Position numbers and translations under genes: made by a program. A DNA stretch of 64,000 nucleotides from positions 372,001-436,000 of the forward strand of contig CANMRT010000004.1 of the NCBI GenBank assembly GCA_947500415.1. Reading direction: 5' to 3'. Under the pieces are notes generated by a model, which was not told where the DNA came from, did no database searches, and saw only the letters and a program-made list of their open reading frames with translations. This DNA is from an uncultured Roseicyclus sp. Its GTDB lineage: Bacteria; Pseudomonadota; Alphaproteobacteria; Rhodobacterales; Rhodobacteraceae. Below, one piece after another: positions 1 to 45,485 of the stretch. How positions within the stretch are numbered: position 1 is the first letter of the stretch; every line of letters starts with the position of its first letter.

Positions 1-327
1 TGCAGAATGGGCGATCACGAACTCTGGCATGGCCGCTTGCTCAGCCAATAGCGCTGCGACATCGGTTGCCACATCCGGCAACCGCGCGCGCCCTTTTGGG
101 CTTTGCGTGAATCCGTGCCCAGGCAGGTCCGGTGCGATGAAGTCCCAATCCCCGATACCGGCATCCAACAAAGGCGCCCAGGTGTGCGTCGAGGCCCCAG
201 CGCCATGCAGCAGCAAGGCGGACGGCCCGGTTCCCATGCGTTGAAAATGCCACCGATGCGGTGCGATACGCGCGCTTTGGCTGGTAGAACGGTTCGGCCA
301 CCCGGGCGGCGGCAAATGCGCACTCAC
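1..327 (-). CDS. bchO: Magnesium chelatase accessory protein BchO (3' part missing, window edge)
   Basis: Alpha/beta-hydrolase-fold protein that accompanies magnesium chelatase in purple bacteria; its exact role is unsettled. The ORF track shows only wrong-frame shadows here. In the frame starting with GTG at 327 the translation reads HRWHFQRMGTG, then LLLHGAGASTHTW (oxyanion-hole region) and DLPGHGFTQSPKG. This is the hydrolase N-terminus typical of BchO. The GTG overlaps the bchD stop as GTGA, so translation is probably coupled. About 109 codons are visible and the remainder lies left of base 1. The position directly after bchD supports the name. Confidence 0.9.
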   Translation of the reverse strand, partial: MSAHLPPPGWPNRSTSQSARIAPHRWHFQRMGTGPSALLLHGAGASTHTWAPLLDAGIGDWDFIAPDLPGHGFTQSPKGRARLPDVATDVAALLAEQAAMPEFVIAHSA

Positions 328-2015
328 GGTGTCAGCGCCGCGTCCACGGCGCGTGAAAGGCTACGTCCGTCGGCACGGGGCAAGGGCAGATAGGGTGCGC
401 CCATCTCCTGCGCCAAGCCGTCGAGGCCCTTGGTCGGTCGCAACCCGGTGTCGATGACAAGGCCAGGCACACCTTCTGACCGTAGGAAGCGCGCCATTGT
501 AGTCGCGTCTTCCGCGGCCTGCGCCCGGTTCGCGGCACCGCTCAGGTCCACATTTGCGCGCCCATCAGTCAGCAGGGCGATCGAAGGCGTCATGCCTTTC
601 CCACGCGCTAGTCCCGCCAGCTCAAGCGCAGCCTTCAAACCTGATGCCAGTGGTGTGCCGCCCCCTCCCGGAAGGCTCGACAACCGGCGTTTGGTCTGCA
701 CCAGCGACCGCGTCGGCGGCAGCAACACGTCCGATCCTTCGCCACGGAATGCCACCAGCGCCACGTGATCGCGCCGCGCATACGCTTCGGCCAGCAACAA
801 CTCCACCGCGCCCTTCGCCTCTGCCAAGCGCGCCATCGCGGAGGAGCCTGAGGCATCCACCACGAAGATAATCGCGCGGTCCGAGGCCTCTTGATAGCGC
901 CGAATACGCAGGTCCGACGCGCGCACATGGATACGTGTCGCATCGCCGGTCAGCTTACGCCGGATCGTCTGCCAAGGGGCCGCCGTGCGCAGCGTTGCCA
1001 CAAGGTCCAGCCGCGCACCGCCACCGAGTTTTCCGGCGCGTGGCGGCAAGGGACGACCGCGTCTGTTGCCGGTGCGCTTTGCGCCAGACCCAAGACCAGA
1101 CGGCGTGCGATTAACCTTGCCAGCGGCCAGCCGCGCCAACAGATCGACGGGAATCATGGCGCGCGCAGCCTCAAGCAAGATGTCAGTTGGGAATTCGTCC
1201 ACGGAAGGTTCGGTATCCGGCTGATCTTCAGGCGTGCTTTCCGAGGGCGGGGGTGGTGGTGTGTCATCCGCGTGATCTTCTGCCTGCTCCGGCATCTGCG
1301 TGGCCCGTGGCGCAAGCACCAACTCGACGGCAAGCAACAGATCCGGCTCCTCCACCTGCTCCGCGCCAGACAAGGCAGCGGAAGCCCGTGCAACGGCCAG
1401 TGCAAGAAGCGGCGCCCTAAGCGAATCGACTCCCAACCGTGCTGCAACGGTTACGATCTCAGCGACCGCCTCAGGCGCCACTTTTACCTTGGACAAACCC
1501 GCGCGCGCTTCCGCCAATGCAGCGGCGTTAATCTCCAGATCGGGCGCGTCGGACAAGCCATGCTCCGTCAGATCGATATGCAAGGCCAGGCGATCCAGCA
1601 GGGCCGAAGGTGTCCGCTCTCCGGGCTCGGCACCTTCATCAAACGCCACTAAGGACAAGTCCTCGTGCTGGTCCAATGCCGTCGCCAGTCGAGCTGCCAG
1701 CCCGGGTTCGACACGCTCTGCCATTGGCATCAACAATGTTCCGGGAAGGTCCAACAGCCCGTGGGTGCGGTGCAAAGCGCCGGTTTCCAAAGTCGCAGTA
1801 AGGTCCAAACCGCCATAGAGCGCCTCATCGGACATCGAAGGGGCCATGCGTCGAAGGGGCAAGCCATCCAAAGCGGCCTTCAGACCCGCCTCAAACCGAT
1901 CCCTTACCGGGCCAACTCTGGCGCGCACCGAAATGCCGCCAAAAGAAGCGGGATCAAGCGCAAAGCACGCGACGGCCAGATTGACCGAATGCCAGCGTGC
2001 CTCAGCCGCACTCAC
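324..2015 (-). CDS. bchD: Magnesium chelatase subunit D
   Basis: Subunit D of the ATP-dependent chelatase that inserts Mg2+ into protoporphyrin IX, the committed step to bacteriochlorophyll. 563 residues, normal for the family. The N-terminal half is a degenerate AAA+ domain related to BchI. Then comes a proline-rich and acidic linker (TPPPPPSESTPEDQ, near residues 250-275) and a C-terminal von Willebrand A domain with the MIDAS motif DASGS at about 387-391 and a TDGR segment near 484. The start is GTG, overlapping the bchI stop (GTGA), and its own stop overlaps bchO in the same way. The three genes thus form a tightly coupled bchI-bchD-bchO operon behind crtA. Confidence 0.96.
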   Translation of the reverse strand: MSAAEARWHSVNLAVACFALDPASFGGISVRARVGPVRDRFEAGLKAALDGLPLRRMAPSMSDEALYGGLDLTATLETGALHRTHGLLDLPGTLLMPMAERVEPGLAARLATALDQHEDLSLVAFDEGAEPGERTPSALLDRLALHIDLTEHGLSDAPDLEINAAALAEARAGLSKVKVAPEAVAEIVTVAARLGVDSLRAPLLALAVARASAALSGAEQVEEPDLLLAVELVLAPRATQMPEQAEDHADDTPPPPPSESTPEDQPDTEPSVDEFPTDILLEAARAMIPVDLLARLAAGKVNRTPSGLGSGAKRTGNRRGRPLPPRAGKLGGGARLDLVATLRTAAPWQTIRRKLTGDATRIHVRASDLRIRRYQEASDRAIIFVVDASGSSAMARLAEAKGAVELLLAEAYARRDHVALVAFRGEGSDVLLPPTRSLVQTKRRLSSLPGGGGTPLASGLKAALELAGLARGKGMTPSIALLTDGRANVDLSGAANRAQAAEDATTMARFLRSEGVPGLVIDTGLRPTKGLDGLAQEMGAPYLPLPRADGRSLSRAVDAALTP

Positions 2016-3031
2016 CCCAAGACCTCTTCCACAACGCGCATAACGCGGGTCGTAGAACCGGCCTCATCCAAGGGATCACGGCGCAGGCGATGGCGCAGTG
2101 CGCTTGGGGCCACCAACCGCAAATGCTTGCGGGACACTTCCGCATCCCCATCAAACGCTGCCAAAGCCCTTGCGGCCCGCAGCAAGGTCAATTCGCCCCG
2201 CAACCCGTCCGAGCCAAGGGCGACGCACAAGGTGGCGCAGTCGCGGATTATCGCATCATCGGCCTCAACCGTCGGCAGCCGTTTGCGGGCGTCCACGATC
2301 CGCGCGCGAAGTTCGGCATCCGCCCCGTCCCAATCGGCACAGAAGCTGAGCGCATCACGATCATAGGCGTCGCGGCGGCGGATCACGTCGATGCGCACAT
2401 CCAGATCCTTGGGGCTTTCGACCTCAACCGACAGACCGAAACGGTCCAACAGCTGCGGCCGCAATTCGCCTTCTTCGGGATTGCCAGAGCCCACCAGCAC
2501 GAACCGCGCGGCATGGCGGATTGAAAGACCTTCCCGCTCCACAACGTTCTGCCCTGATTGTGCGACGTCGAGCAGCAAATCGACGATATGATCCTCCAGC
2601 AGGTTTACCTCATCGATATAAAGATACCCCCGGTTCGCGCGCGCCAGCAGGCCCGGCTCAAACGCCTTTTCGCCCTTGGTCAGCGCCTTCTCGATGTCGA
2701 GCGCGCCAACCACCCGATCCTCGGTCGCGCCAAGGGGCAGGTCGATAACAGGCGTGGGTTTTGCCACGGTATTGGCATCCAGAAGTGTGACCCAATCCGG
2801 CACATCAGAGACGAATTCTGAGTTCACCGGGCACCCGGCCACAGCGTCAATCTCAGGCAGCAGTGCCGCCAACCCGCGCACGGCGGTTGATTTACCAGTG
2901 CCGCGATCCCCAAAGACCAAAACCCCGCCGATGCCACCGTCAATGGCAGTCAGCACCATGGCGCGCTTCATCTCATCCTGCCCGACAATCGCGGAAAACG
3001 GGAACGGCCCGGGTCGCTTCATATCTTTCAT
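2012..3031 (-). CDS. bchI: Magnesium chelatase ATPase subunit I
   Basis: AAA+ ATPase subunit that forms hexameric rings with BchD and drives Mg2+ insertion by BchH. 339 residues, full length. Walker A is GDRGTGKST at residues 41-49; Walker B lies in the segment YIDEVNLLEDH; the C-terminal helical lid includes RHLRLVAPSALRHRLRRDP. The ATG overlaps the crtA stop (ATGA) and the stop overlaps the bchD GTG. BchH is not in the window. Expression is likely governed by the promoter upstream of crtA and its PpsR-type box. Confidence 0.97.
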   Translation of the reverse strand: MKDMKRPGPFPFSAIVGQDEMKRAMVLTAIDGGIGGVLVFGDRGTGKSTAVRGLAALLPEIDAVAGCPVNSEFVSDVPDWVTLLDANTVAKPTPVIDLPLGATEDRVVGALDIEKALTKGEKAFEPGLLARANRGYLYIDEVNLLEDHIVDLLLDVAQSGQNVVEREGLSIRHAARFVLVGSGNPEEGELRPQLLDRFGLSVEVESPKDLDVRIDVIRRRDAYDRDALSFCADWDGADAELRARIVDARKRLPTVEADDAIIRDCATLCVALGSDGLRGELTLLRAARALAAFDGDAEVSRKHLRLVAPSALRHRLRRDPLDEAGSTTRVMRVVEEVLG

Positions 3032-3778: not shown

Positions 3779-3796
3779 TGTCAACTTAATCTGACA
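3779..3796. promoter_or_regulatory. PpsR/CrtJ-type operator, crtA-proximal
   Basis: The sequence TGTCAACTTAATCTGACA fits TGT-N12-ACA exactly, with 5-base symmetric arms TGTCA/TGACA. This is the established binding motif of the redox/light repressor PpsR (CrtJ) at photosynthesis promoters. It lies just upstream of crtA in the crtA-crtI divergent region. Binding here is inferred. Confidence 0.85.
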
Positions 3797-3854
3797 CACT
3801 GGATTGCGTAATGGAAGGTAAATCGCCTTTGCAAAGTGGTAGCGCTCCTCATAC

Positions 3855-3872
3855 TGTAAACAACAATGGACA
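3855..3872. promoter_or_regulatory. PpsR/CrtJ-type operator, crtI-proximal
   Basis: TGTAAACAACAATGGACA is a second exact TGT-N12-ACA match, 76 bases from the first (start to start). A possible crtI promoter, TTGCAA (3829-3834), 17 bases, TACTGT (3852-3857), puts the operator across the -10 element. The box lies inside the longer crtI ORF of the track, which argues for the later start at 3883. Confidence 0.78.
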
Positions 3873-3882
3873 CTCTAGTGAA

Positions 3883-5436
3883 ATGAACAGAACCGTGCCC
3901 CCAACAGATGCATCGAGCGCCATTGTCATCGGTGCGGGCCTGGGCGGATTGTCGGCCGCCATGCGACTCGGTGCCAAGGGCTACCGCGTCACCGTGCTGG
4001 ATCGTCTGGACCGTGCCGGCGGGCGTGGGTCATCGATCACACAGAACGGTCACCGCTTTGATCTGGGCCCGACGATCGTGACCGTGCCGCAGGTCTTCCG
4101 CCAGCTTTGGTCGGAGTGTGGGCGCGAATTCGACGCAGATGTCGATTTGCGACCCGTCGATCCTTACTATGAGATCCGCTGGCGCGATGGCTCGTCCCTC
4201 AAAGTACAACAAGACGAAACCGCGATGGAGGCCGAAGTCGCGCGCCTTTCGCCCGGCGACCTCAAAGGCTACCGCAAGTTTCTGGCCGATAGTGAAACCC
4301 GTTACGAGTTCGGCTTCGAAGGATTGGGCCGTCGCCCCATGAACAAGCTGATGGACCTGATCCGCGAACTTCCCGGTTTTGTCCGCTTGCGTGCCGACCG
4401 TTCCGTCTACGCCCATGCCGCGCGCCGCGTGAAAGACGAACGCCTGCGCATGGCGTTGTCGTTCCATCCGCTCTTCATCGGCGGCGATCCCACGCGCGTG
4501 ACGAGCATGTATATCCTCGTCAGCCACCTCGAAAAGGAATTCGGTGTTCACTACGCGATGGGCGGCGTGCAGGCGATGGCCGACGCCATGGTCCGCGTGA
4601 TTGAGGATCAAGGTGGCACGGTTCGACTCAACACCGATGTCGACCAAATCACCGTTGAACGAGGCCGCGCCACGGGCGTGACCATGGGCGATGGCGAGCA
4701 GCTGAATGCAGACATCGTCGTCTCCAATGCTGACCCCGGCACGACGTATGAACACCTTCTGTCGAAGCACCAAAAGAAGCGTTGGACGCACAAGCGCCTG
4801 AACCGGTCCCGCTGGTCCATGGGGCTGTTTGTCTGGTACTTCGGCACCAAGGGCACCCGCGGCAAATGGGAAGATGTCGGCCACCACACGATCCTGAACG
4901 GTCCGCGCTATCAGGGCTTGCTGGACGACATCTTCATCAACCGCGACCTTGCCGATGATATGTCCGTTTATCTGCACCGCCCGTCCGTCTCGGACCCCAG
5001 CGCCGCACCTGAAGGCGACGATACGTTCTACGCGCTGTCTCCCGTGCCCAACCTGCATGGGAAAGGCTCCGTCGATTGGGATGAGATGTGCGAGACCTAC
5101 CGCCAACGGCTTGCCGGTGTCCTCAACGATCATCTCCTGCCGGGATTTGAGGATCACCTGAGCGCCTCGCATATTTTCACGCCGGAAACCTTTGTTTCCC
5201 GCTACCGGTCGCCCCATGGGGCCGGGTTCTCGCTTGAGCCGCGCATTTTCCAATCCGCCTGGTTCCGCCCACACAATATCTCGGAAGAGATTTCGGGCCT
5301 ATTCCTTGTCGGTGCGGGAACACATCCGGGCGCAGGCATCCCCTCGGTCGTCACCTCGTCCGAGGTTTTGACGAAACTTGTTCCCGATGCACCGCGCCCC
5401 TGGGTTCAGCCCACTCAACGCCTTGCTGCTGAGTAA
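3883..5436 (+). CDS. crtI: Phytoene desaturase
   Basis: FAD-dependent desaturase that converts phytoene to neurosporene or lycopene. The dinucleotide-binding motif GAGLGGLSAA is at residues 17-26 of the chosen start, followed by VTVLDRLDRAGGRG. The C-terminal family signature FLVGAGTHPGAGIP is present. I chose ATG 3883 (517 residues). The track start at 3811 would add 24 residues lacking family character and place an operator inside the gene. The Shine-Dalgarno site is weak at either start. crtB follows after 4 bases, so the two are cotranscribed. Divergent from crtA, with two PpsR-type boxes between. Confidence 0.95.
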   Translation: MNRTVPPTDASSAIVIGAGLGGLSAAMRLGAKGYRVTVLDRLDRAGGRGSSITQNGHRFDLGPTIVTVPQVFRQLWSECGREFDADVDLRPVDPYYEIRWRDGSSLKVQQDETAMEAEVARLSPGDLKGYRKFLADSETRYEFGFEGLGRRPMNKLMDLIRELPGFVRLRADRSVYAHAARRVKDERLRMALSFHPLFIGGDPTRVTSMYILVSHLEKEFGVHYAMGGVQAMADAMVRVIEDQGGTVRLNTDVDQITVERGRATGVTMGDGEQLNADIVVSNADPGTTYEHLLSKHQKKRWTHKRLNRSRWSMGLFVWYFGTKGTRGKWEDVGHHTILNGPRYQGLLDDIFINRDLADDMSVYLHRPSVSDPSAAPEGDDTFYALSPVPNLHGKGSVDWDEMCETYRQRLAGVLNDHLLPGFEDHLSASHIFTPETFVSRYRSPHGAGFSLEPRIFQSAWFRPHNISEEISGLFLVGAGTHPGAGIPSVVTSSEVLTKLVPDAPRPWVQPTQRLAAE

Positions 5437-5440
5437 TCCC

Positions 5441-6454
5441 ATGATTGATCCGAACGATATGGACCACTGCCGTGCCGCGATCCGGGAAGGCTCCTATTCC
5501 TTCCACGCGGCGTCGAAACTTCTTCCTGCCTCCGTCCGTGATCCTGCCTTAGCGCTCTACGCGTTCTGCCGCTGCGCCGATGACGAAGTCGATTTCGGTG
5601 ATGACAAACCCGCCGCCGTGCTCGCCCTGTCGGAACGTCTTGAAGCCGCCTACCGCGGTCAGCCGCGCAACACCCCGACAGATCGCGCCTTCACCGCGAT
5701 GATCGAAGAATTCGACATGCCGCGCGCCTTGCCTGAGGCGTTGCTGGAAGGCCTCGCCTGGGATGGGATGGAGCGTCGCTACGCCACCCTTTCCGACCTG
5801 CGCGCTTACTCCGCCCGTGTCGCCTCTGCCGTGGGCGCCATGATGTGCGTGCTGATGCGTGTCCGCGACGAACAGGCCCTCGCGCGCGCCTGTGACCTCG
5901 GCGTTGCGATGCAGCTGACCAACATTGCCCGCGATGTTGGTGAGGATGCCCGCGCAGGGCGGCTCTACCTGCCGACCGAATGGCTGGACGAAAACGGCCT
6001 GAGAGATGCCGACGTTCTCGGCAATCCTGCCCCGTCCCAAAAGCTGCAACGCCTCACCAAACGCTTGCTGGCTGAGGCCAACCGCCTTTACCTGCGCAGC
6101 GAGCCTGGCATCGCCCGCCTTCCGCTCCCTGCGCGCCCCGGCATTTTTGCGGCGCGGCACTGCTACGACGCCATCGGGCGCAAGCTAGCGCGTTCTGGAT
6201 ATGACAGCATCTCGATGCGCGCGACGACTACAGGACGGCATAAAATGGCACTTTTGGGCCTGTCCGTCATCCGAGCCGGCTGGGTCAGCATCACGCCCGA
6301 AAGCCCCGTGATCTTCGCGAAGCCCTTGCCCGAGACAGCCTTCCTGGTTGAGGCCGCGTCGCATCCGAAGCCAAATCAATCGGCCTGGAGCGATCCGGTC
6401 ATTTCCGTGCTCAGCCAGCTCAAAGCGCAGGAACGTCTTACCGCCGCCGAATAG
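5441..6454 (+). CDS. crtB: Phytoene synthase
   Basis: Condenses two geranylgeranyl diphosphates to phytoene, the first carotenoid-specific step. 337 residues from ATG 5441; the upstream part of the track ORF (from 5378) lies inside crtI. Both Asp-rich substrate-Mg motifs are visible: DDEVD at 47-51 and NIARDVGED at 161-169. The N-terminus GSYSFHAASKLLP is typical. It follows crtI by 4 bases. In Rhodobacter, crtB is often followed by tspO/crtK; here a DMT transporter on the opposite strand occupies that place. The stop lies within a 14-base palindrome shared with that gene's stop. Confidence 0.95.
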   Translation: MIDPNDMDHCRAAIREGSYSFHAASKLLPASVRDPALALYAFCRCADDEVDFGDDKPAAVLALSERLEAAYRGQPRNTPTDRAFTAMIEEFDMPRALPEALLEGLAWDGMERRYATLSDLRAYSARVASAVGAMMCVLMRVRDEQALARACDLGVAMQLTNIARDVGEDARAGRLYLPTEWLDENGLRDADVLGNPAPSQKLQRLTKRLLAEANRLYLRSEPGIARLPLPARPGIFAARHCYDAIGRKLARSGYDSISMRATTTGRHKMALLGLSVIRAGWVSITPESPVIFAKPLPETAFLVEAASHPKPNQSAWSDPVISVLSQLKAQERLTAAE

Positions 6455-42696: not shown

Positions 42697-43227
42697 TCAG
42701 CCTTCGACGGTTTCCTGTAGACGCGCCAAGCCACGCTCATAATCCGCACCAACGAGGCCATCCATCATCAGGCCGAACCAACGGCCAATCGGGCCAGCGC
42801 CCATGTCGGCATCCAAGCCCCAAACGACGCGCGTGCCCTCGCCTTCCGGGACAAGCCGCCACCAGGCTTCAGCCGTGCCCATATCGCCGAAATCGAGCTC
42901 CGTCCGGACGCTTTCATTCTCGGCGAGTTCAACGATTTCCTGCCGTCCGTTGCCCACATTTGGATGCTCGGACGTCCACTCCATCACGTTGCCTACGCCC
43001 GTGTCAGGCCCGGAATATTCCACGACCATATCCGGGTCCAAATCCCCCCAGGGCGACCATTCGGAGAAAGCTTGAAGCGAGCTCACATGGGGGAACACGG
43101 CCTCGGGCGGGGCGTCCACGACCAGATCCCGTTCCACAATGACATGACGGGGCAGGAAAAAGCCTACCACGAGAAGCAAGGCGACTATGGCCACAAGGCC
43201 GATAAGAATGTTCCGCAGAATACGCAT
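42697..43227 (-). CDS. SRPBCC-family protein (polyketide cyclase/START-like)
   Basis: 176 residues. An N-terminal membrane anchor (ILIGLVAIVALLLVVGFFLP) precedes an SRPBCC fold with HVIVERDLVVDAPPEAVFPHVSSLQAFSEWSPWGDLDPDM and a C-terminal helix. Ligand unknown. It lies downstream of the carbonic-anhydrase operon by about 80 bases on the same strand, but a link is not shown. Confidence 0.82.
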   Translation of the reverse strand: MRILRNILIGLVAIVALLLVVGFFLPRHVIVERDLVVDAPPEAVFPHVSSLQAFSEWSPWGDLDPDMVVEYSGPDTGVGNVMEWTSEHPNVGNGRQEIVELAENESVRTELDFGDMGTAEAWWRLVPEGEGTRVVWGLDADMGAGPIGRWFGLMMDGLVGADYERGLARLQETVEG

Positions 43228-43306: not shown

Positions 43307-43618
43307 TCAGAATCTTTCGGCCCGTAGCACTTCGCAATCGCTGACACTGATCACACCGATATGCTTTTCGACCACTGCAAAAGCCTTGTTCAAAAGGTCG
43401 TCCAGCTTCTCTTCGGAAATGATGCAAATAACCTGAACCATGCCTTGCCCACGTCCGATCTGGCCCTCACGGCTCCAGTTTCCGGACCGCCCACCACCTG
43501 CGAGCACCGGCAGGATCGAATATCCCGTCACACCGGCGCTTTCCATGGCATCCGTCAGACGAGACTGCATGACGGCTTCGATAATCACGGCAACGCGCTT
43601 TGCCTTGTGGGTTTGCAT
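43307..43618 (-). CDS. sbtB: SbtB-like PII signalling protein
   Basis: 103 residues with a PII ferredoxin-like fold: KRVAVIIEAVMQSRLTDAMESAGVTGYSILPVLAGGG, a T-loop RSGNWSREGQIGRGQGM, then VQVICIISEEKLDDLLNKAFAVVEKHIGVISVSDCEVLRAERF. This pattern matches SbtB, which binds adenine nucleotides and regulates SbtA. The C-terminal CGPxGC extension of many cyanobacterial SbtBs is absent. The ATG follows the sbtA stop by 1 base. The gene pair makes the assignment strong. Confidence 0.85.
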   Translation of the reverse strand: MQTHKAKRVAVIIEAVMQSRLTDAMESAGVTGYSILPVLAGGGRSGNWSREGQIGRGQGMVQVICIISEEKLDDLLNKAFAVVEKHIGVISVSDCEVLRAERF

Positions 43619-43619
43619 G

Positions 43620-44600
43620 TCAGCCTCCGGTCACGAAACTGGCCACCGCAAGGTAAAGCGGGATGCCAAGGGTCAGGTTGAATGGGAACGTAACGCCAAG
43701 CGAAAGGGTCAGGTAGATAGACGGGTTCGCTTCGGGCAGGGCCACACGCATGGCGGCGGGCACGGCGATGTAGGAGGCCGAGGCAGAGAGCGTCATGAAC
43801 AGGACCAAGCCGCCGGGGCTAAGGGCCAGAAGGACGCCCGCGATCAATCCGAAGACTGACCCTACAATCGGCATCACAACACCAAAGAGGAATAGCCCAG
43901 GCTTCAATACGCCACGCGCTTCCCGCAGGCCGCGGCCGGCGACGAGGCCCATATCCAGCAGGAACAGGCACAGCACACCCTGGAACGGTGTGACGATGAA
44001 TGCGGCAATCAGGTCGAGCCCTTCGTTGCCCGTGATGACGCCGATCAGGAAAGAGCCAACAAGCAAAACGATGGAGCCGTTCAAAAGAATCTCGCGCATC
44101 AGGCCCGCGTCCATCTTGGCCGCGTTTTTGTCGAAGCGCGCGATGAGCCAAAGGGCCGATAAGATGGCAGGTGCCTCCATCACGGCAGCGACGGCGACCA
44201 TGTAGCCTTCGGATGCGAGACCCGCGCCCTCCACAACAGATGTGGCTGCCACAAACGTCACAATGGAGATCGAGCCATAATGGCCTGCGACCGCTGCCGC
44301 ATCGACGACGGAAAGGCCGGTCATCAGGCGGAGAAGCGCAAAGGCCACCATCGGGATCGCAAAGGACAGGACCAGACCGGCGACGAGTGAAAGGATCAGC
44401 GTGGAGTCGATGCCGTTGGAGGCAACCGCAGCGCCGCCTTTGAAGCCGATGGCGAACAGCAGGTAGATCGACATGCCCTTAGCGATGGCTTCGGGGATCG
44501 ACAGGTCTGACCGCGCGAAAGCTGCTAGGACGCCAAGCGCGAAAAACAGGATGATCGGAGACAGCAGATTATTTGCGGCCAGCGCCAGCATACCCTCCAT
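43620..44600 (-). CDS. sbtA: SbtA-type sodium-dependent bicarbonate transporter
   Basis: 326 residues, about ten membrane helices in two inverted halves. N-terminal half: NNLLSPIILFFALGVLAAFARSDLSIPEAIAKGMSIYLLFAIGFKGG, with the G-rich segment AAVAGHYGSISIVTFVAATSVVEGAG in the middle; second half: GLVLFMTLSASASYIAVPAAMRVALPEANPSIYLTLSLGVTFPFNLTLGIPLY. This is the SbtA (DUF897) family, which couples Na+ to bicarbonate uptake in cyanobacteria. It lies between sbtB and a beta-carbonic anhydrase on one strand. Confidence 0.9.
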   Translation of the reverse strand: MEGMLALAANNLLSPIILFFALGVLAAFARSDLSIPEAIAKGMSIYLLFAIGFKGGAAVASNGIDSTLILSLVAGLVLSFAIPMVAFALLRLMTGLSVVDAAAVAGHYGSISIVTFVAATSVVEGAGLASEGYMVAVAAVMEAPAILSALWLIARFDKNAAKMDAGLMREILLNGSIVLLVGSFLIGVITGNEGLDLIAAFIVTPFQGVLCLFLLDMGLVAGRGLREARGVLKPGLFLFGVVMPIVGSVFGLIAGVLLALSPGGLVLFMTLSASASYIAVPAAMRVALPEANPSIYLTLSLGVTFPFNLTLGIPLYLAVASFVTGG

Positions 44601-44666
44601 CGAGGTCTCCCCTAATCCAACGGTCGTCTGGGCTGGGCTTTACGGATGCCAGCCACAGCGTGCAAG

Positions 44667-45341
44667 TCAGGTGCGTGCGAAATGGCGGACGGTCCCGTCG
44701 AAGGTTTCGAGATCCATTTCGGCGATGTCGGCCCAGATGCCATGCAGGCTGAGCCTTCCATCGTCGACGGCTTCCTTCACGAAAGGGTAGCCCAGTAGGT
44801 TTTCCAGGCTGACGTGAATGCCTTCTTTTTCCAGAGCGGTTTGTTTGTCTTCGGCATCTTCGATGTCCGCAACACGGTCGTAGCCGGGGCGCAGAGTATC
44901 CAGCCATCGGCCAATGAAGCTCTCGGTCTTATCAAAGTCCGGCGCATTGCCTTCGCACATAGCGATGCATCCAGCTACACCGCCGCACTTTGAATGGCCC
45001 ATGACAAGGATATGTTCTACCTTCAGATGCTTCACCGCGAACTCAACAGCAGCGGCCGTGCCGTGGTGTCGGCCATCAGGGGTGTAGGGAGAGACGAGGT
45101 TGGCGATGTTGCGGTGCACGAACAGCTCGCCCGTGCGCTGACCAAAGACGGAGTTGATCGCGACCCGGCTGTCGCAACAGGCGATGACCATGGCGCGGGG
45201 GTGCTGACCCTCTTCCGCCAGTTTGCGGAACCATTCTTCGTTTTCCGGGAACCGGGTTTCCTTCCAGTCGCGGTAGCGGTCCAGAAGATAATCGGGCAGG
45301 GATTTCACGCGATGCATCGGAAGCCTCTTGGTTCGTTTCAT
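44667..45341 (-). CDS. Beta-carbonic anhydrase
   Basis: Zinc enzyme interconverting CO2 and bicarbonate. 224 residues. Zinc ligands and the Asp-Arg dyad are in ACCDSRV (C55, D57, R59), His 116 and Cys 119 in VMGHSKCGG. Also VHRNIANLVSPYTPD and AVEFAVKHLKVEH are typical. First gene of a probable operon with sbtA (66 bases on) and sbtB. A 144-base region upstream holds the promoter, but no motif I can name. Confidence 0.93.
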   Translation of the reverse strand: MKRTKRLPMHRVKSLPDYLLDRYRDWKETRFPENEEWFRKLAEEGQHPRAMVIACCDSRVAINSVFGQRTGELFVHRNIANLVSPYTPDGRHHGTAAAVEFAVKHLKVEHILVMGHSKCGGVAGCIAMCEGNAPDFDKTESFIGRWLDTLRPGYDRVADIEDAEDKQTALEKEGIHVSLENLLGYPFVKEAVDDGRLSLHGIWADIAEMDLETFDGTVRHFART

Positions 45342-45485
45342 TGAATGTTTAACGGGAATTCCAACTAAATTGCAGCCGCTTTCTGCGCTCGCATAAAGGG
45401 TTTCTTCAGCACGTCAGTTCAGTGTGTTCGTTGTTCCCTGATTGGGGACCGTCCTGTGGTGGGGGCGATGTAATGGAGCGAGAGA

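Follow-up and report, generated by a model that had tools for sequence, protein, structure and literature searches.

Across the Rhodobacteraceae, gene sets that join an SbtA-type transporter to its accessory genes go with light harvesting and not with Calvin-cycle carbon fixation. One such set lies in the window, the 64,000-nucleotide stretch of an uncultured Roseicyclus sp. genome analyzed here, as an operon for a beta-carbonic anhydrase, a divergent SbtA-fold transporter, and a PII-like protein. We favor, with modest confidence, the reading that this operon serves to supply bicarbonate for anaplerotic and biotin-dependent carboxylation in a photoheterotroph that lacks the Calvin cycle. A wider and less probable proposal, which we offer tentatively, is that bicarbonate acquisition via two SbtA-type systems may be a regular, RuBisCO-independent part of aerobic phototrophy in the family, in which adenylate-gated import would replace respiratory CO2 as the carbon source of anaplerotic reactions and acyl-CoA carboxylation whenever respiration is spared by light, and the window operon would represent a separate, carbonic anhydrase-coupled subfamily with a remodeled bicarbonate site.

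The operon and its host genome

The original prediction of a carbonic anhydrase-SbtA-SbtB operon on one strand was confirmed by Pfam, with all three genes on the minus strand and all three matches far above the respective cutoffs (27 bits in the case of PF05982). The first gene, at 44667..45341, encodes the carbonic anhydrase (224 amino acids as listed; PF00484, 153 bits). It is followed after 66 bp by the Sbt_1-family transporter gene at 43620..44600 (326 amino acids; PF05982, 383 bits), the stop codon of which is separated by 1 bp from the start of the PII-like regulator gene at 43307..43618 (103 amino acids; PF00543, 53 bits). Translation of the carbonic anhydrase probably begins at the Met at 45317 rather than at 45341, since close relatives start at MHRV. 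Its predicted product carries the catalytic residues of the class, namely the zinc ligands C56, H116, and C119 and the D57/R59 pair, and its nearest solved relatives are the beta-carbonic anhydrases 1ddz and 1ekj; by profile, Cys-His-Cys ligands, and Asp/Arg pair, it is assigned to the beta-carbonic anhydrases.

The intergenic region upstream of the operon, before a divergent gene (45342..45485, minus strand), is the presumed promoter region. No sigma-70 consensus site above the level of shuffled sequences was present there, and a terminator search at the operon likewise gave nothing above shuffles. A PpsR/CrtJ-type light-responsive site (TGTN12ACA) ahead of the operon was considered and rejected, with none in 45342..45485 and a count across the whole window near chance level; the operon showed no regulatory site of a light or CO2 type. 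The SbtB gene is followed after 80 bp by a gene of the same orientation for an SRPBCC/polyketide-cyclase-like protein (42697-43227), which might be cotranscribed with the operon, a convincing terminator between the two being absent.

The source genome (4.01 Mb, 100% complete) is bacteriochlorophyll bearing, as had been proposed. The window contains a BchD/BchI-like pair at 324-3031, a CrtI-like gene at 3811-5436, and a phytoene synthase gene at 5378-6454, and pufL/M lie on the same contig, 26 to 28 kb upstream of the window. Just ahead of the CrtI-like gene, at 3779-3796, is a TGTN12ACA palindrome-type site (TGTCAACTTAATCTGACA), which fits the expectation for PpsR/CrtJ control of photosynthesis genes. 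The earlier observation that no Calvin-cycle gene was in view holds genome-wide for RuBisCO: PF00016, searched with positive controls, had no match to any form in the whole genome. A RuBisCO-based CO2-concentrating mechanism requires an enzyme that this genome lacks, and RuBisCO was ruled out as the operon's partner, being absent here and showing no positive association across the family. Among the other carboxylases that the original prediction had named as worth seeking, pyruvate carboxylase is present (1783 bits), together with three more biotin-carboxylase proteins. PEP carboxylase is absent from the genome and was ruled out as a bicarbonate consumer.

Transporter, PII partner, and the canonical pair

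The window pair had been taken for cyanobacterial SbtA/SbtB, and this identification had to be given up. A second SbtA-SbtB pair lies on contig C1 (locus L002:1151-3500, about 245.2 to 247.6 kb). The C1 SbtA scores 356 bits against Slr1512, versus only 82 bits for the window SbtA; the C1 SbtB reaches 79 to 84 bits against solved cyanobacterial SbtB-type proteins, and the window PII protein scores 40 bits against Thiomonas CPII versus 23 bits against SbtB7001. By these bit scores, the C1 pair is the canonical cyanobacterial-type pair of this genome and the window pair is not. A divergent LysR regulator gene lies beside the canonical pair on C1. Among canonical SbtA copies of the family, the LysR gene is mostly kept, and an adjacent SbtB gene is found in only 5 of 27 copies.

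The AlphaFold model of the window transporter (pLDDT, 86) had 7egl, 8zor, 7cyf, 7egk, and 7cye as its five best PDB matches (TM, 0.82 to 0.90), with 7egl and 8zor at the top (TM, 0.86 to 0.90). The protein thus agrees, as modeled, with both the SbtA family profile and the SbtA fold. The bicarbonate-site residues of Slr1512 are S114, Y140, S324, and S327, mutation of which cut transport to 10 to 40% (PMC8352866). Only part of this four-residue site is found in the window transporter: S114 and S324 remain, whereas Ala stands in place of both Y140 and S327; in addition, D325 is replaced by Tyr (Slr1512 numbering). The same three replacements occur in essentially all of the approximately 108 window-type relatives, whereas the 26 canonical family copies retain the cyanobacterial residues; the window type therefore forms a distinct subfamily. 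Bicarbonate is the predicted substrate, and because two of the four bicarbonate residues are replaced subfamily-wide, the substrate may differ.

The model of the PII protein (pLDDT, 85) found its best fold match in CPII, followed by SbtB. Like an SbtB, the protein has a PII fold and is encoded directly behind sbtA. By sequence, it is nearer to CPII, and the C-terminal CGPxGC R-loop, which is present in some SbtB proteins only, is missing, the C terminus reading LRAERF. CPII of Thiomonas intermedia (5d4n and 5d4o) is the nearest solved relative by both sequence and fold, at about 28% identity. The matched CPII structures are complexes for which the entry titles name ADP, AMP, and bicarbonate, and the window protein may, by analogy, bind the same ligands. 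Unlike CPII, it would have no carboxysome role, since the genome lacks RuBisCO. Together, these features place the window pair, as judged from sequence, in a divergent, separate Sbt subfamily, in which the bicarbonate site is altered and the partner protein resembles CPII.

Compared with Slr1512-Slr1513 of Synechocystis, the window pair has the same transporter family, fold, and transporter-then-PII gene order and likely shares Na+ symport under the control of the PII protein (PMC8352866). It differs in that the transporter is only about 27% identical and has lost Y140, S327, and D325, the PII protein is closer to CPII and lacks the R-loop, a carbonic anhydrase is part of the operon, and the genome has neither RuBisCO nor carboxysome.

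Gene neighborhoods and the transported anion

The gene order is widely conserved. In 30 family loci, the SbtB gene follows the SbtA gene in every case and carbonic anhydrase precedes SbtA in 26; among the four loci without an upstream carbonic anhydrase, two stretches end at a contig end. Leucyl-aminopeptidase and NlpC/P60 flanking genes are conserved in about 27 to 30 loci, which suggests vertical inheritance with losses within the family. Among 80 named loci, 78 have SbtB behind SbtA, about 31 carry a carbonic anhydrase homologue upstream, and 11 carry one just downstream (Roseibium/Labrenzia, Hongsoonwoonella, Thalassospira, and others); in about half, carbonic anhydrase is absent within 1.5 kb. 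In a tree of the carbonic anhydrases, those encoded upstream and those encoded downstream fall into separate groups, which points to two origins of the linkage or to its survival through a rearrangement.

Carboxylation genes also appear nearby. In Roseibium/Labrenzia, genes for crotonyl-CoA carboxylase/reductase (Ccr) and/or an ethylmalonyl-CoA-mutase-like protein adjoin SbtA-SbtB-carbonic anhydrase (L081, L083, L084, L086, and L087, at about 1.3 to 5.3 kb in each), and a Hyphomicrobium bin has Ccr beside the operon (L144:3495-4814), making a direct link to the ethylmalonyl-CoA pathway possible. Ccr neighbors were counted at L084, L086, L087, and L144 only. MDR-type dehydrogenases near L109, L112, L150, and L152 were rejected as Ccr, their sequences lacking the Ccr signature although they had clustered with Ccr. 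Form I RuBisCO (cbbL-cbbS-cbbQ) adjoins a transporter of Cereibacter sphaeroides that is 63% identical and has the same pocket residues, and in genome G253 no more than about 2 kb separates a close transporter relative from a RuBisCO match; plasmid relatives without SbtB have varied gene contexts, and the C. sphaeroides neighbor is therefore only moderate support. On the C. sphaeroides plasmid (L293:4971-8713), the window-type transporter, which there lacks SbtB, lies between an OxyR-like regulator and LysR-cbbL-cbbS-cbbQ. In several SbtA copies without SbtB (G118, G160, G205, G237, G261, and others), the matched stretch is interrupted by a stop codon; the SbtB-less group may be decay prone, or the stops may be assembly errors.

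These neighborhoods bear on the identity of the transported anion. The window transporter could be an Sbt_1 paralogue for another small anion (e.g., a carboxylate), with bicarbonate entering via the canonical C1 pair and the carbonic anhydrase serving pH or CO2 from decarboxylation. Such a specialization would fit the invariant loss of Y140, S327, and D325 alongside their retention in canonical copies, the presence of both sbtA types together in 19 of 298 genera, and a fold common to bile-acid and other anion symporters. It fits less well with the recurrence of carbonic anhydrase linkage in two gene orders, with carboxylase neighbors and a RuBisCO beside a copy having the same pocket, and with the crystallization, together with bicarbonate, of the solved protein nearest to the PII partner, and we consider it rather unlikely.

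Association with phototrophy and proposed function

With presence called by E-value thresholds and transcribed by hand from listings, window-type SbtB was found in 50 of 124 puf+ genera (40%) versus 12 of 174 puf- genera (7%; Fisher P = 3e-12; 298 genera), and when only good-quality genomes were considered, in 43 of 103 versus 10 of 160. Canonical SbtA occurred in 26 puf+ genera and a single puf- genus of the 298. SbtA copies without SbtB had no link to puf (9/124 puf+ versus 12/174 puf-), and window-type SbtB had no positive link to true RuBisCO (5 of 49 genera with the enzyme versus 57 of 249 without). An rpoB tree of 140 genera was built by case-control sampling from cases with an rpoB match and random controls. 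On this tree, Pagel's test, which can be liberal, associated puf with both the window type (LR, 31; P = 3e-6) and the canonical type (LR, 28.6; P = 9e-6), and RuBisCO with neither (P = 0.39 and 0.82, respectively). For both traits, all 2,000 simulations on the tree gave odds ratios below the observed one. The association with puf is thus controlled for phylogeny but not for habitat. Close physical linkage of puf and sbtA was considered and dropped, the distances (34 to 340 kb in 11 of 12 genomes checked and 1.2 Mb in one) not being decisive.

The operon is also found beyond the family, in nonphototrophic genera such as Thalassospira, Kiloniella, and Spiribacter, with marine or halophilic genera among them; it is therefore not specific to phototrophy. 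This distribution would suit a general, light-independent role in CO2 or pH homeostasis during growth under air or in alkaline saline waters, with the link to puf arising from shared habitat (e.g., sunlit surface water). The low-CO2 dependence of heterotrophs known from MpsAB (PMC6689103) points the same way. The strength of the puf association inside one family with phylogeny controlled, its appearance in two unrelated sbtA types, and its absence from SbtA copies without SbtB argue otherwise, and we regard this explanation as unlikely. That the operon is left over from an ancestral CO2-concentrating system built on RuBisCO, and was retained by chance after RuBisCO loss, is highly improbable: the close transporter relatives near RuBisCO in C. 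sphaeroides and G253 would fit, but the open reading frames are intact, with identities of 58 to 89% across many genera, and RuBisCO is not positively associated by genus counts or on the tree.

In the bicarbonate-supply reading, the transporter would import HCO3- with Na+ via the SbtA elevator mechanism, and a cytoplasmic beta-carbonic anhydrase would keep HCO3- and CO2 in equilibrium, thereby supplying both the enzymes that use HCO3- (pyruvate carboxylase and acyl-CoA carboxylases) and those that use CO2. The CPII-like trimer would sense the adenylate state, possibly together with bicarbonate, and use its T-loop to gate the transporter, in the manner of SbtB on cyanobacterial SbtA. Light would spare respiration and thereby lower internal CO2 while anaplerotic demand persists, which would explain why the module is kept mainly in puf+ lineages. 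Phototrophic heterotrophs are reported to save carbon for biomass in the light, with help from anaplerotic reactions (PMC10100682), and R. denitrificans fixes 10 to 15% of its protein carbon anaplerotically (PMC2749216). Carbonic anhydrase linkage in two gene orders and many genera supports the supply module, as do the Ccr/mutase and C. sphaeroides RuBisCO neighbors, the SbtA- and CPII-like models, pyruvate carboxylase, and the puf association. Against it stand the replaced pocket residues, a canonical SbtA-SbtB pair that could do the bicarbonate job, the operon's occurrence outside phototrophs, the named loci lacking a nearby carbonic anhydrase, the lack of a light- or CO2-type regulatory site, and the finding that CO2 did not enhance the growth of R. 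denitrificans in minimal medium (PMC2749216). The original interpretation is upheld in part. In its favor are an operon that seems designed for inorganic carbon, in a RuBisCO-free phototroph that has pyruvate carboxylase and further biotin-dependent carboxylases, and the strong link to puf; not borne out are the identity of the pair with cyanobacterial SbtA/SbtB, the presence of PEP carboxylase, and any specificity of the operon to phototrophy.

Many heterotrophs are known to have SbtA-like proteins (PMC10117731). An Sbt gene of "Candidatus Phycosocius," likewise an aerobic anoxygenic phototroph without RuBisCO, has already been proposed to serve anaplerotic CO2 assimilation; in the accessible part of that report, the gene receives a single mention, without a carbonic anhydrase operon, subfamily distinction, or comparative test, and the organism uses PEP carboxylase, which the window genome lacks (PMC10008586). 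MpsAB of Staphylococcus likewise supplies inorganic carbon to a heterotroph at atmospheric CO2, but is described as a different kind of transporter, and in S. aureus it replaces a carbonic anhydrase, whereas the window pair accompanies one (PMC6689103 and PMC8567241). We found no report of a carbonic anhydrase-coupled subfamily or of a family-wide link to puf in the open-licence literature. The anaplerotic idea has thus been published for one phototroph, and the subfamily distinction and family-wide association appear to be unreported.

RuBisCO-free light-harvesting bacteria are common in surface waters. If the proposal is true, a dedicated, regulated bicarbonate system would be tied to the reaction center rather than to RuBisCO, making light-dependent anaplerotic uptake genetically testable, and a small, carbonic anhydrase-coupled transporter-PII gene set would be usable for bicarbonate supply in heterotrophs.
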